The notes under the pieces are model-generated. The model was not told the origin of the DNA, did not search any database, and saw nothing but the letters and a program-made list of their open reading frames with translations. Positions 4,712 to 59,336 of a stretch of 60,029 nucleotides of DNA are shown here, one piece after another. The DNA lies in the NCBI GenBank assembly GCA_030265685.1, contig JAJDGO010000003.1, positions 1 through 60,029 of the forward strand. The letters are read 5' to 3'. The position numbers and the translations under genes are program-made. Positions within the stretch are counted from its first letter, which is position 1, and each line of letters begins with the position of its first letter. This DNA comes from Bacteroidales bacterium OttesenSCG-928-M11 (GTDB taxonomy: Bacteria; Bacteroidota; Bacteroidia; Bacteroidales; Azobacteroidaceae).

Positions 4712-4750
4712 AAGAAAGGAGATTTCCAAAGCGGGAATCTCCTTTCTTTA
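4712..4750 (+). terminator. Rho-independent-like terminator
   Basis: Inverted repeat AAGAAAGGAGATTTCC / GGGAATCTCCTTTCTT, about 16-bp stem, 5-nt loop. Confidence 0.8.
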
Positions 4751-4785: not shown

Positions 4786-4913
4786 AAGTCTTGTATAATT
4801 CCCGCCTCAAGTTATAGTATGAGTTTGTCAAAGTTCTTGTAGAACTTCGGTCAAGTTATACTAAAACTTCGCTTAAGTTATACTAGAACTTGGGTCAAGT
4901 TGTAGTAAAACTT
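4786..4913. repeat. Dyad array A1: six units of 17-nt imperfect palindrome, 22-bp period
   Basis: Cores at 4809, 4831, 4853, 4875, 4897, exactly 22 bp apart, with a degenerate unit at 4786; consensus AAGTTnTnnTAnAACTT. Confidence 0.9.
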
Positions 4914-5064
4914 TGTCGAAAGAAAAAGTAACCGGGATTAGTTTCTTTTTCTTGCCTTTGAAAATAGCGACAAATTTAAATAACTTCTATTATCACTTCC
5001 GGGATCAACTTCGAAATAAAAGCAAAAAGTTTATAAAATTGACCAGCCATTAAGAATCATTCTT

Positions 5065-5091: not shown

Positions 5092-6213
5092 ATGGATATA
5101 AGCTCATTAATAATCGGCGTTTTTATTGGAATCGGAATCACGATGATTGTTTTTTTTCTATTCGAAAAGAAGCAGAAAGAAAAACAAAGTTCCATGCAAA
5201 AACAAATGAATATTGAGTTCGAAAACATCGCCTTGAAAATATTAGACGAGAAAGGAGAGAAAATTGCTCGGATAAATCACGAAAGTATTCAACAAATCCT
5301 AAATCCACTAAAGGAAAATATCAACGAGTTTAAGAATAAGGTAGAACAAACTTACGACAAAGAGTCGAAAGAACGTTTCTCCTTAGCCAACGAAGTAAAA
5401 CGATTGGTTGAACTAAACCAAAAAATTAGTGAAGAAGCTAATCAATTGACCTCAGCATTAAAGGGTAATTCGAAAATGCAAGGCGATTGGGGCGAAATGA
5501 TATTGGAAAGCATTTTGGATAAATCGGGTTTGGTGAAAGATCGCGAGTATTTTATTCAAGAAATGATTCGAGATGCTCAAGGGACTCCTATTAGAAATCA
5601 AAGCGGACAGAAAATGCAACCGGACGTAATTATTAAATGTCCTGACGAAAGAAATATTATTATCGATTCGAAAGTTTCTTTATCTGCCTACGTTCGTTTT
5701 ATGAATACGGACGATTCTTTGGAGCAAAAAGCGGCAATGAAAGATCATTTGTTATCTATCCGAAAACACATCGACGAATTATCCCTAAAATCCTATCACG
5801 AATATGGTACAACGATGGGTTATGTCTTGATGTTTATCCCCAACGAACCGGCTTATTTATTAGCAATGCAAGATGATTTGGATTTGTGGCACTATGCGTA
5901 TAACAAACAAGTGGTATTGATTAGCCCAACTAATTTGATTGCAACCATCAAGTTGATTGTAGACTTGTGGCGAAAAGAATATCAAACCCGTAATGCTCTT
6001 GAGATTGCTGGTCGGGGAGCGAAGTTGTATGATAAATTAGTTTCTTTTGTTGAAAATTTAGAAAACGTAGGTGTCTCGTTAGATAAAGCTAAGTCGGCAT
6101 ATGATGATGCTTTTAAACAGCTTTCAACCGGCAATGGTAACCTAATTAGTCAAGCAGAAAAGCTAAGAGATATGGGGATTGCTCCGAAAAAAAACTTGAA
6201 AATAAAAAATTAA
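5092..6213 (+). CDS. rmuC: DNA recombination protein RmuC
   Basis: N-terminal TM, coiled coil, GDWGEMILESILDKSGL...YFIQ...QPDVIIKCPDERNIIIDSKVSL...YVLMFIPNEPAY. Confidence 0.93.
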   Translation: MDISSLIIGVFIGIGITMIVFFLFEKKQKEKQSSMQKQMNIEFENIALKILDEKGEKIARINHESIQQILNPLKENINEFKNKVEQTYDKESKERFSLANEVKRLVELNQKISEEANQLTSALKGNSKMQGDWGEMILESILDKSGLVKDREYFIQEMIRDAQGTPIRNQSGQKMQPDVIIKCPDERNIIIDSKVSLSAYVRFMNTDDSLEQKAAMKDHLLSIRKHIDELSLKSYHEYGTTMGYVLMFIPNEPAYLLAMQDDLDLWHYAYNKQVVLISPTNLIATIKLIVDLWRKEYQTRNALEIAGRGAKLYDKLVSFVENLENVGVSLDKAKSAYDDAFKQLSTGNGNLISQAEKLRDMGIAPKKNLKIKN

Positions 6214-32985: not shown

Positions 32986-33050
32986 ACCAGCCTATTCCTC
33001 TTATCAAAAAGATTTAATAACTTGATCAGTTTTCTGTACAGAAAAGTGAA

Positions 33051-33133
33051 AAAAGATACAAGAACTTTAGGTAAATTATACTATAACTTGAACGAAGTTC
33101 TACTATAACTTTAGGCAAGTTGGTGTAGGAGAT
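33051..33133. repeat. Dyad array A2: four units, 22-bp period
   Basis: Cores at 33051, 33073, 33095, 33117 with spacers taggt, gaacg, taggc; same consensus as A1, outer units degenerate. Confidence 0.85.
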
Positions 33134-33377: not shown

Positions 33378-36080
33378 ATGAAAAAGATTTTACTATTATT
33401 CATCGTGTACCTGTTGGGATATCCGGGACAAGCTGCGGCTGAAATTTCCCTCACTTGGAAAGATAACGCTGGTCAGAAAAAATTATATATAAAAACAACA
33501 GAGAAGCAGCAATTTATTACGATCGATTGGGGCGATGGGGATATAGAGACACAAAGCAGCACCTCTTCCGTGAAGTATTTTTTGGAATTGAATCATTTTT
33601 ATACTAAGGACGATACGTATCATGTGACCATAACGGCCGAAAATCCGGCTAACATTCTTAGATTTAATTGCAACGATAATTCAATTACAAGCTTGGATGT
33701 GAGTCAATGCACGGCATTAAAAGATTTGGAATGCGACAATAATCAACTCTCTATTTTAGATGTGAGTCAATGCACAGCATTAACATACTTAAGTTGCTTC
33801 AATAATCAACTTCCTTCATTGAATGTGAGTAAGAATACACAATTAGAGAGTATATCATGCGGTAGCAATCAACTGACTTCTTTGGATGTGAATAAGAATT
33901 TGAAATTGTTCCAGTTGTTTTGTTCCGACAACCAGCTCACGACCCTGGATGTGAATGCGAACGTAGGATTGATCAATTTATCTTGCAATAATAATAAGCT
34001 CTCTTCCCTAAACTTGAAACTCAACCCTCAATTAAGAGAGTTTTATTGTTATAATAACCAACTTACCTCTTTAGATTTGAAAAATAATCCGGCATTGCAA
34101 ACGGTTGAATGTTACCAGAATAAGATCGTTTCTTTGGATCTGAACAATAACAAAGAATTACTGCAAATTTATTGTGATAATAATAATCTTAATTATTTAA
34201 ATATACAAAATAGTCTGAAATTAAAAGGATTGCATTGTTCTTACAATCAACTTCCCTCTTTGAATGTAAGCAACAATACGGAATTAACAAAGCTGTATTG
34301 TAGTAATAATAAATTCGCTGAGTTAAATCTGAAAAACAATGCTGAATTGTTTCATTTGGTATGCGATTCCAATAAACTCGCCTCTTTAGACCTTAGCAGT
34401 AATGTGGAATTAGTAGAATTATATTGTTCCAACAATCAACTAACCTCTTTAGATCTCAGCAACAATGTGGAATTAGTAGAATTATGTTGTTCCAACAATC
34501 AACTAACCTCTTTAGATCTCAGAAATAACGAGAAATTAAAAGAGTTGATTTGTAATGCCAATAAACTATCAACCCTGGATGTGAGTAAAAATTCGAAGCT
34601 TAAGAAGCTTTGTGGCTACGATAATTGGCTGCCTTATAAACAATTGGCAGATGTACATAATAACGGATCGACCTACTCCAACGCATTGAAGATGTCTCCT
34701 CAATACGCTGAAGACACACGCTATCAGGAAGAAGAAATTTCACTCCTTTATAATGGAACTACCAGTAAAATTTCGGTCGAAAATGGAGTCTCCGGAGTTG
34801 ACTATACCTATGCCAACGGTATACTCACTTTCCTCAAGGCAGGTACATACACCGTTTCAATGACTAATGAAGAGGTTAAGGAAGAGCTTTTTCGGTTAGT
34901 GAAAATTATCACTACCTACACCATTAGCCCATGGGATATTTCATTCACATGGAACCCGACAAGCGAGTCCAAACTTCGTATAAGAGCTACCGAAGGCACT
35001 GATAATATTATGGTAGACTGGGGAAACGGAACGGTCTCTACTCACAATAGCGACGGAGGAAGATATTATATCGACATACCCTATGTCAACGCAAGCGGGC
35101 CTTATAATGCCAGAATAAGACGAGTAAACAGCAAACATGTACTGGATTATCTAGCCGTAAACAACTCAGAGGTAACCCAACTTGATGTGACCAATGCGCC
35201 CGATCTATCAAGACTTTATTGTGCAAATAACAAACTGCAATCGCTCGACTTGAGTAGCAACAAAAAGATTAATTATTTTGAATGTAATGATAATCAACTC
35301 TCGCTTGAGCAGTTGTATGATATAATGAATAACGGTGCGCCTTATGCGAATAGTTGTATTATTTCTCCTCAAAGATTGCCTGATGAAAAAGTCATGATAG
35401 GTGATGTGATAACTATACCTTCCATTAACGGTACTTATTGCGATGTTGAGGTAATTGCCGATAGAAATTATTACACCTATATAGATGGAAAGCTTACATT
35501 CATAAAGACTACCGAACAACCGATAAAGATTTTCATGTTCCACCCAGATGTAGTCGACAAAGAGCAAACAAAAGCAAAAGTAAGCGGCTACTATAGCGTA
35601 GAATATAGAAACTTTAACATCACCGCAACCGTCAACAATCCCCTCAATGGCAGTATTGTTGGTAATGGAACCTATGATTACGGGGAAACGGCAACCCTCT
35701 CTGTGTTGCTCGACGGCATTAGTCGCTTTATTAATTGGACTGATACTGAAGGTAATGTCGTTTCAACCGAGAATCCGTATACATTTACGGTAACGAAGGA
35801 TTTAGAGTTGATAGCAAAATTAGAATCATCAAATACTTCCGGAATAGAAAGCAATGAAGCAATCGACCTGCAAGTCTATCCCAATCCGATTATAGATATA
35901 TTATATATCGATGCAGAGCATGTCCAGTTGGTGGATATTTATAATCTGCAAGGCATATCAGTCTTTTCGCAGGAGGGAGATATTCAATCTGTTGACATGA
36001 GTCACCTTTCTTCGGGAGGTTACATCGTGGTTGTTAAAACAGCAAGCGGTTTATACCGCAAAGTGATATTAAAGAAATAA
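33378..36080 (+). CDS. Leucine-rich repeat surface protein with InlB-B-like repeat and T9SS type A sorting tail
   Basis: About 21-aa repeats LxxLxCxxNxLxxLDLSxN; NITATVNNPLNGSIVGNGTYDYGETATLSV; C-terminal LQVYPNPIIDILYID...VDIYNLQG...GGYIVVVKTASGLYRKVILKK. Confidence 0.9.
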   Translation: MKKILLLFIVYLLGYPGQAAAEISLTWKDNAGQKKLYIKTTEKQQFITIDWGDGDIETQSSTSSVKYFLELNHFYTKDDTYHVTITAENPANILRFNCNDNSITSLDVSQCTALKDLECDNNQLSILDVSQCTALTYLSCFNNQLPSLNVSKNTQLESISCGSNQLTSLDVNKNLKLFQLFCSDNQLTTLDVNANVGLINLSCNNNKLSSLNLKLNPQLREFYCYNNQLTSLDLKNNPALQTVECYQNKIVSLDLNNNKELLQIYCDNNNLNYLNIQNSLKLKGLHCSYNQLPSLNVSNNTELTKLYCSNNKFAELNLKNNAELFHLVCDSNKLASLDLSSNVELVELYCSNNQLTSLDLSNNVELVELCCSNNQLTSLDLRNNEKLKELICNANKLSTLDVSKNSKLKKLCGYDNWLPYKQLADVHNNGSTYSNALKMSPQYAEDTRYQEEEISLLYNGTTSKISVENGVSGVDYTYANGILTFLKAGTYTVSMTNEEVKEELFRLVKIITTYTISPWDISFTWNPTSESKLRIRATEGTDNIMVDWGNGTVSTHNSDGGRYYIDIPYVNASGPYNARIRRVNSKHVLDYLAVNNSEVTQLDVTNAPDLSRLYCANNKLQSLDLSSNKKINYFECNDNQLSLEQLYDIMNNGAPYANSCIISPQRLPDEKVMIGDVITIPSINGTYCDVEVIADRNYYTYIDGKLTFIKTTEQPIKIFMFHPDVVDKEQTKAKVSGYYSVEYRNFNITATVNNPLNGSIVGNGTYDYGETATLSVLLDGISRFINWTDTEGNVVSTENPYTFTVTKDLELIAKLESSNTSGIESNEAIDLQVYPNPIIDILYIDAEHVQLVDIYNLQGISVFSQEGDIQSVDMSHLSSGGYIVVVKTASGLYRKVILKK
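34401..34526 (+). repeat. 63-bp in-frame tandem duplication inside the LRR gene
   Basis: AATGTGGAATTAGTAGAATTAT(A/G)TTGTTCCAACAATCAACTAACCTCTTTAGATCTCAG twice, nearly identical. Confidence 0.95.
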
Positions 36081-43180: not shown

Positions 43181-43798
43181 TCAGGATTGTTTATTTATAA
43201 TATCTCTGATAGAGGAGGCTTTTTCATAGTCTTCTCTTCGAATGGCTTCGTCGAGTTCAATCCTTAACTCTTCCTTGGTCATTTTTTCGTAATCTGTTTC
43301 TTTGCTTTTTTCTTCTGTTTCTTTGGCGGATTCTGCTTCTATTTCATTTATCTCTTCGTAGTAAGATATATCCATATCCATATCCATAACAACACTCACT
43401 TGTTGCATAATCTCTTCGGTTGTAATAACCGGAGCTTGTGCCCGAATAGCCAATGCGATTGCATCGGAAGTGCGAGAGTCTATGTCAAAAAAGACGCCTT
43501 CTTTATTTCTGAAAGTAATGCGCGAGAGAAATACACCATCATCATACTTGTAGATAAAGACAGAGTGTATTTCAGCGTTGATCTTTTTGACGAAAGACAT
43601 GAACAAATCATGAGTTAGAGGGCGTGGAGGATTTAATCCTTCAAGATGAATTGCGATAGACTGAGCTTCGGGGGTCCCGATGATAATAGGCAGTCGTCTC
43701 GGTCCTTCTTCTTCAGCAAGGATCAAAGCATATGCTCCAGCTTGAACTTGGCTGAAGGTTACGCCGACAATCTTTAATGATACCGATTTCTTATTCAT
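43181..43798 (-). CDS. Bifunctional nuclease family protein (DUF151) with C-terminal UVR motif
   Basis: GAYALILAEEEGPRRLPIIIGTPEAQSIAIHLEG...RTSDAIALAIRAQAPV; ELDEAIRREDYEKASSIRDII (UVR). Confidence 0.9.
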   Translation of the reverse strand: MNKKSVSLKIVGVTFSQVQAGAYALILAEEEGPRRLPIIIGTPEAQSIAIHLEGLNPPRPLTHDLFMSFVKKINAEIHSVFIYKYDDGVFLSRITFRNKEGVFFDIDSRTSDAIALAIRAQAPVITTEEIMQQVSVVMDMDMDISYYEEINEIEAESAKETEEKSKETDYEKMTKEELRIELDEAIRREDYEKASSIRDIINKQS

Positions 43799-48083: not shown

Positions 48084-48210
48084 TTGTCATTTAATGAGAG
48101 CGCCGTTTTCATTAGATGACAAGCTCGTTCTCATTAGATGACAAGCACCTTCTCATTAAATGACAATCTACCTCTCGTCTAATGATAATCTCGGTCTCAT
48201 TTAATGAGAA
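48084..48210. repeat. Dyad array B: six units of a different 17-nt imperfect palindrome, 22-bp period
   Basis: Cores at 48084, 48106, 48128, 48150, 48172, 48194, exactly 22 bp apart; spacers cgccg, gctcg, gcacc, tctac, tctcg; consensus TTCTCATTARATGACAA. Confidence 0.92.
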
Positions 48211-59231: not shown

Positions 59232-59336
59232 AAAAGATACTACAACTTGATCGAAGTTCTTGTATAACTTGACCGAAGTTATAGTAAAACTTGGAGCAAG
59301 TTCTTGTATAACTTAGACTAAGTTGTAGTAAAACTT
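59232..59336. repeat. Dyad array A3: five units, 22-bp period
   Basis: Cores at 59232, 59254, 59276, 59298, 59320; spacers gatcg, gaccg, ggagc, agact. Confidence 0.92.

Follow-up and report, generated by a model that had tools for sequence, protein, structure and literature searches.

What is the run of evenly spaced palindromes that stands between a terminator-like hairpin and rmuC in the 60,029-nt window (the whole stretch of DNA analyzed here), and does it bind protein or act as a structured RNA, the two roles suggested for it in the initial annotation? The array, A1, comprises five dyads and a decayed sixth, located, like the other window features below, on the plus strand. The decayed unit (AAGTCTTGTATAATTCC, 4786 to 4802), recognized from its sequence, carries a one-base deletion in its left arm, and its loop, CTTGTAT, recurs in intact units elsewhere. 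It is followed by unit 1 (AAGTTATAGTATGAGTT, 4809 to 4825, with a degenerate right arm), unit 2 (AAGTTCTTGTAGAACTT, 4831 to 4847), unit 3 (AAGTTATACTAAAACTT, 4853 to 4869), unit 4 (AAGTTATACTAGAACTT, 4875 to 4891), and unit 5 (AAGTTGTAGTAAAACTT, 4897 to 4913, with no tail unit after it), all five of which were read in the sequence and recovered by pattern scan. Their starts advance by exactly 22 bp, and the cores first reported after a degenerate first unit are correct in both position and sequence. Tandem Repeats Finder calls the same region twice, at 4843 to 4913 (period 22) and 4807 to 4922 (period 44), and the pattern AAGTTNTNNTANAACTT, allowed up to two mismatches, matches the window 37 times versus 7.4 ± 3.1 times in shuffles (maximum of 21), a comparison that overstates significance because the units are related by descent. 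The reported setting, after a strong terminator and before rmuC, also holds: a perfect 13-bp stem (AAGAAAGGAGATT/AATCTCCTTTCTT, 4712 to 4724 and 4736 to 4748) encloses an 11-nt loop, and the resulting terminator-like hairpin (4712 to 4748), read from the sequence, is missing from our terminator scan because the scan accepts loops of 3 to 8 nt only; downstream, rmuC (5092 to 6213) matches the Pfam RmuC family (PF02646, E=7e-100).

A1 is one array among many. The genome to which the window belongs (G000) is a MAG of 1.48 Mb in 83 contigs that is 51.7% complete, and this half of a genome contains 148 forward and 139 reverse exact AAGTT-N7-AACTT cores (reversed control pattern, 0). RmuC relatives and a Por_Secre_tail protein suggest that G000 belongs to Bacteroidota, probably to Bacteroidales. 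At least 45 AAGTT arrays were read, within 681 kb of G000 sequence chosen around known copies, and the expectation of many intergenic copies with a constant period was borne out, as 45 of 45 arrays are intergenic in DNA that is 89% coding (according to a simple codon-usage gene caller) and 128 of 131 neighboring AAGTT pairs are 22.0 bp apart, center to center. Forty congeners contain a couple of isolated core matches each at most, and a two-unit AAGTT array is absent from all 47 other family genomes; G000 itself has no close relative, the closest RmuC matches in the genus being only 61% identical. A phage origin was considered and rejected, as no exact two-unit match occurs among 2.9 million viral contigs.

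The arrays are laid out leader first, with an A-tract and half-unit (AAAAAGATACTATAACTT), five variable nucleotides, and then dyads of the form AAGTT-N-TA-S-TA-N-AACTT separated by 5-nt spacers, and some close with a special tail dyad, AAGTTATTRGGAAACTT. The leader was scored in 27 oriented arrays (over half of the 45) and a tail-type unit ends 8 of 45, the two standing at opposite ends in all five arrays that have both. With leader and tail counted in, 38 of the 45 arrays have 4 or 5 dyads; A1, unlike many other copies, lacks both leader and tail. Two arrays on contig C15 of G000 (L157, 7511 to 7615 and 17189 to 17272), situated 9.7 kb apart, lie beside paralogous regions with 85% identity over 384 bp, and their last two units align with arms mostly intact and with spacers and loops changed; this pair is possibly a duplicated array.

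Two further arrays of the AAGTT core occur in the window, and one of them brings in a second palindrome. This composite array (33006 to 33133) consists of two leader variants (AAAAAGATTTAATAACTT at 33006 to 33023 and a leader half-unit at 33051 to 33067) with a TTTTCTGTACAGAAAA dyad between them (33030 to 33045), followed by AAGTT-type units at 33073 to 33089 and 33095 to 33111 and a decayed unit at 33117 to 33133; the other (59232 to 59336) opens with the leader half-unit AAAAGATACTACAACTT (59232 to 59248) and continues with units at 59254, 59276, 59298, and 59320. Within the family, TTTTCTGTACAGAAAA arrays are confined to G000, where they have a 22-bp period and are usually flanked on one or both sides by leader half-units, some also including AAGTT units. 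Spacing is as strict here as among AAGTT pairs, at 22.0 bp in all 26 CTGTACAG pairs and all 26 leader-unit pairs, and unlike neighbors (CTGTACAG with AAGTT or leader) are mostly 21.5 or 22.5 bp apart, as follows from placing odd-centered and even-centered dyads in one register, with the remainder mostly at 43.5 bp (two periods). Having modules in common, the AAGTT and CTGTACAG dyads of G000 may be one family. Of 67 leader-like sequences in 885 kb, 61 belong to arrays or adjoin CTGTACAG modules, and unit 1 of A1 is among the 6 solitary ones; none of the 67 was recognized as a transposon end, and an autonomous parent with leader-like ends was accordingly rejected. A third family of dyads, TCATTWRATGA, which has no relation to the AAGTT core, forms an array of six units with a 22-bp period at 48087 to 48207 and recurs at L176 (3255 to 3353) and in G000 at C12:43741 and C56:44922.

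In 101 oriented units, the arm positions are 98 to 100% conserved (1.84 to 2.0 bits), figures somewhat inflated because admission of a unit required at most one arm mismatch, an effect far smaller than the contrast with the 5-nt spacers, which are nearly random (0.08 to 0.5 bits, with a preference only for a purine at position 2 and a pyrimidine at position 4). No spacer series is common to different G000 arrays beyond chance, and flanks are common to arrays only through CTGTACAG modules, short tracts, and one pair of paralogous genes; the random spacers could be a product of how the units are made, instead of selection. Across the dyad, position 6 lies opposite position 12, and the two bases are Watson-Crick partners in only 3 of the 101 units versus 29 expected at random (the corresponding P value is not literal, because the units are related). 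Avoidance of pairing at these positions favors recognition of DNA by a dimer over an RNA structure, since a stem would show the opposite, and the sequences suggest double-stranded DNA recognition together with some selection against long perfect palindromes.

The reading that we favor, and to which we give about an even chance, is that A1 belongs to a modular intergenic repeat that is dispersed, is specific to the lineage, and has dyads that are putative cooperative protein-binding sites. Such an element would combine an A-tract leader half-unit with, as a rule, three or four 17-bp dyads at 22-bp intervals and, in some copies, a tail dyad; each dyad would most likely be the operator of a dimeric DNA-binding protein, with adjacent dimers spaced by about two turns of the helix and binding cooperatively next to each other. 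Copy number, lineage restriction, and the within-family exclusion distance described below suggest that the repeat spread as a family within the lineage, and conserved arms beside saturated spacers suggest that, after this spread, selection acted on binding at every copy. The sequences show the anatomy, register, dispersal, intergenic placement, species restriction, and within-family exclusion; we infer the protein, its cooperativity, and the effect of its occupancy, and occupied arrays might either anchor chromosome structure or serve the protein by which the repeat is spread. Of the two roles originally proposed, phased protein binding is supported by the fixed register, kept even across unrelated dyads, and the conserved arms and free spacers. 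The accompanying proposal that all dyads face the same side of the helix holds approximately: the step is about two turns, but at 10.5 bp per turn a 22-bp step overshoots two turns by about 1 bp, and the dyad face rotates by about 34 degrees per unit. As a working analogy, lambda OR1-3 are 17-bp pseudo-palindromes that lie about two helical turns apart and are bound cooperatively, although they occupy a single locus beside a repressor gene, whereas the arrays here are scattered over the genome. CRISPR arrays, in which cas genes accompany repeats and spacers no shorter than about 23 and 26 bp, respectively, differ from these 17-bp units and 5-bp spacers.

Other Bacteroidales genomes have the same layout with unrelated palindromes, which points to a common DNA-binding or mobile-element system. 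A 99%-complete congener (G015) has a 23-bp array with the core TCTACTAAGA in about 460 two-unit matches, and this element has a sharp, conserved leader (GCAAAGCTTCACTTAGGGTC), spacers specific to their position, and a far end that is ragged (L178, L179, L181, and L219 to L238), and looks recently amplified; the same genome contains the additional families TGAAAC-N5-GTTTCA (23 bp) and ACGTACGTAAATTT (22 bp). Homology between the G015 and G000 cores through their common TACTA was considered, but the dyad centers differ and the cores were taken as unrelated. In Prevotella falsenii, the dyad AAAACCTACGGTTTT forms 22-bp arrays with 430 two-unit matches (e.g., L078, 11517 to 11617), and among seven other genomes searched for this array, six have none and one has 6 matches. 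Spacers are common between copies in both G015 and P. falsenii, as expected from recent copying without selection. A census of 1.36 Mb of loci, drawn mostly from Bacteroidota, gave about 57 non-coding tandem arrays with periods of 14 to 34, of which 22 have a period of 22, four a period of 21, and one a period of 23; a random 312-kb sample of the order has few arrays. Further 22-bp arrays of other, often palindromic units occur in Prevotella and related genomes (L059, 16442 to 16549; L067, 744 to 809 and 13374 to 13435; L074, 4588 to 4680; L089, 16174 to 16238; L090, 695 to 778), and in Prevotella jejuni (L083) several are packed at about one per 2.5 kb.

Placement along the chromosome bears on what occupancy might do. 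Convergent, divergent, and tandem gaps are all occupied, with no preference for gene arrangement. Distances to 3′ gene ends have a median of 70 bp and go down to a few bases, distances to 5′ ends are never below 73 bp, and the leader runs with transcription in 6 cases and against it in 8. With 5′ ends kept this far away and leader direction ignoring transcription, a regulatory role at each adjoining gene is unlikely. Spacing was compared, post hoc, with random placement into the same intergenic gaps, for G000 on 11 complete contigs (506 kb): AAGTT arrays are at least 9.4 kb apart, with none under 9 kb versus 4.2 expected (P=0.001), and in the main family of G015 (family T), 24 arrays are at least 11 kb apart, with none under 10 kb versus 5.5 expected (P=0.0003). 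Different families in G015 approach to within 0.4 to 4 kb. This within-family exclusion (at least 5 to 11 kb) resembles transposition target immunity, although function or the loss of close copies could also explain it.

Best placed among the alternatives, and in our view possible but doubtful, is a selfish MITE-like element of the BrickBuilt or BOX kind, whose dyads bind a transposase supplied in trans, whose exclusion is target immunity, and which has no host function. The dispersed, intergenic, species-specific arrays, modular and with leader and tail, have the right form, and arrays within G015 closely copy one another; G000 arrays, however, have no spacer series in common despite intact arms, and the leader has no inverted repeat at the opposite end. 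Exclusion that operates only within families is what immunity would produce, and the significant exclusion zone around resident copies recalls immune transposons of the Mu/Tn7 type, the cis-immunity of Mu peaking near 5 kb and decaying out to 25 kb (PMC7350765). Yet rve (PF00665, the Mu/Tn7-type transposase) is found neither in half-complete G000 nor in 99%-complete G015, and DDE_Tnp_1, present in G015 and P. falsenii, has no match in half-complete G000. Absence from G000 carries little weight, as MAGs often lose insertion sequences.

Our literature search on 22-bp Bacteroidales repeats found only BrickBuilt and PINSR, which are the closest described elements, both of unknown function. The initial comparison with the tandem-brick MITEs of Porphyromonas gingivalis was right in kind: BrickBuilt is intergenic and species-restricted, with tandem 23-nt units, variable in number, that have a conserved and a variable part, and with a leader and tail that differ (PMC4596501), all of which resembles the 22-bp tandem units, end modules, intergenic placement, and absence from other family genomes seen here. 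It departs from our arrays in having only 19 copies, up to 22.8 units, and a long leader and tail of up to about 300 nt. It also has IS5-type terminal inverted repeats, which support the MITE label, whereas our arrays have a plain or special dyad instead of an inverted leader copy at the far end; the sections consulted do not describe dyad phasing or a register between unlike dyads (PMC4596501). One BrickBuilt copy also adjoins an RmuC-domain gene (PMC4596501). The composite array at 33006 to 33133 is upstream of a gene for a leucine-rich repeat (LRR) protein with a type IX secretion sorting domain, and BrickBuilt, too, often lies next to such genes. PINSR, of the Prevotella intermedia/nigrescens group, is an intergenic, lineage-specific repeat with 177 to 184 copies, no terminal inverted repeats, and no known function (PMC4755523), much like our arrays in its many copies, position, lack of inverted termini, and absence from relatives, except that the sections consulted describe it as a 188-bp repeat and not as phased dyads. 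Since PCR has revealed PINSR in P. falsenii JCM 15124 (PMC4755523), the P. falsenii 22-bp family may be PINSR itself, the two being compared by description only.

More distant systems resemble the arrays in build. BOX modules are 40 to 60 nt long, form no 22-bp dyad ladder, and are unrelated in sequence, but have in common with our arrays a modular intergenic build with a variable number of middle modules. In Streptococcus pneumoniae, there are about 125 intergenic boxA-boxB-boxC elements with no apparent host role and with known terminal inverted repeats and target duplications (PMC3049150). REP/BIME sequences, associated with RAYT transposases, are dispersed extragenic palindromes, often in mosaics and variable among lineages, 20 to 40 bp long with a GTAG or CGTC tag and variable spacing (PMC3733652), in contrast to the 17-bp AAGTT-N7-AACTT dyad without a constant tag, and a RAYT/REP system was rejected because no Y1 transposase (PF01797) turned up in three array-bearing genomes, namely half-complete G000, 99%-complete G015, and that of P. 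falsenii.

An improbable alternative is that the arrays form a chromosome-structuring lattice, with anchors every 10 to 17 kb or so irrespective of dyad family. In G000, intervals with all families pooled are more even than random (coefficient of variation [CV], 0.47 versus 0.81), and CTGTACAG-only arrays avoid AAGTT arrays (none under 5 kb versus 6.3 expected), but these dyads may belong to one family, and the TCATT family shows no avoidance there (n=4). On the fresh G015 contigs C3 to C5, the pooled short-distance deficit was not confirmed (4 under 5 kb versus 3.6 expected; CV, 0.57 versus 0.77; P=0.04), and different G015 families lie close together; we therefore retain only the within-family exclusion and reject a lattice common to all families.

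We consider an RNA-level element, with tandem hairpins acting as a terminator, stabilizer, or small RNA, very unlikely. A1 folds more strongly than shuffles (z, −4.3), a trivial consequence of inverted repeats, and the arrays do lie near 3′ gene ends, but the avoidance of pairing at positions 6 and 12 and the lack of bias in direction or gap type speak against a structured RNA, the other half of the original proposal, and the window has no Rfam match above the gathering score. Least credible of all is an ordinary minisatellite, in which replication slippage would have multiplied a single 22-bp unit. A few identical spacers (4 of 116 neighboring pairs and 3 of 71 pairs two units apart) show that local duplication occurs, but almost every spacer is different whereas the arms are not, most arrays have 4 or 5 dyads, the copies, about 45, are dispersed and in many cases have a defined end, and unlike dyads keep a common register that slippage of a single unit cannot produce.

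Extending the favored reading, of a dispersed repeat with protein-binding dyads, beyond G000 is more speculative. We tentatively propose, as a rather unlikely generalization, a Bacteroidales-wide class of dyad ladders phased at 22 to 23 bp and read by a conserved, fast-evolving dimeric protein system, in which the pitch, the several sites per array, and a zone of about 10 kb free of like copies are constant, the palindrome is replaced between species, with several families per genome, and BrickBuilt and PINSR are instances. BrickBuilt, PINSR, and many unannotated arrays may then obey one rule, dyads at 22 to 23 bp, in which case one protein or mechanism might account for them all. Bacteria would then offer an example of a protein and its site that turn over rapidly as a pair while their geometry stays fixed, and the dyad cores are ready-made bait with which the protein question is directly testable.

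Repeats of other kinds were also observed. Another congener, G028, has a 41-bp tandem repeat of 8.4 copies near rmuC (L136, 907 to 1250). Within the window, coding leucine-rich repeats of 63 bp span 33693 to 34555 in a 900-amino-acid open reading frame (33378 to 36080), and an ATATCC hexamer is repeated in 3.5 perfect copies at 43368 to 43388.
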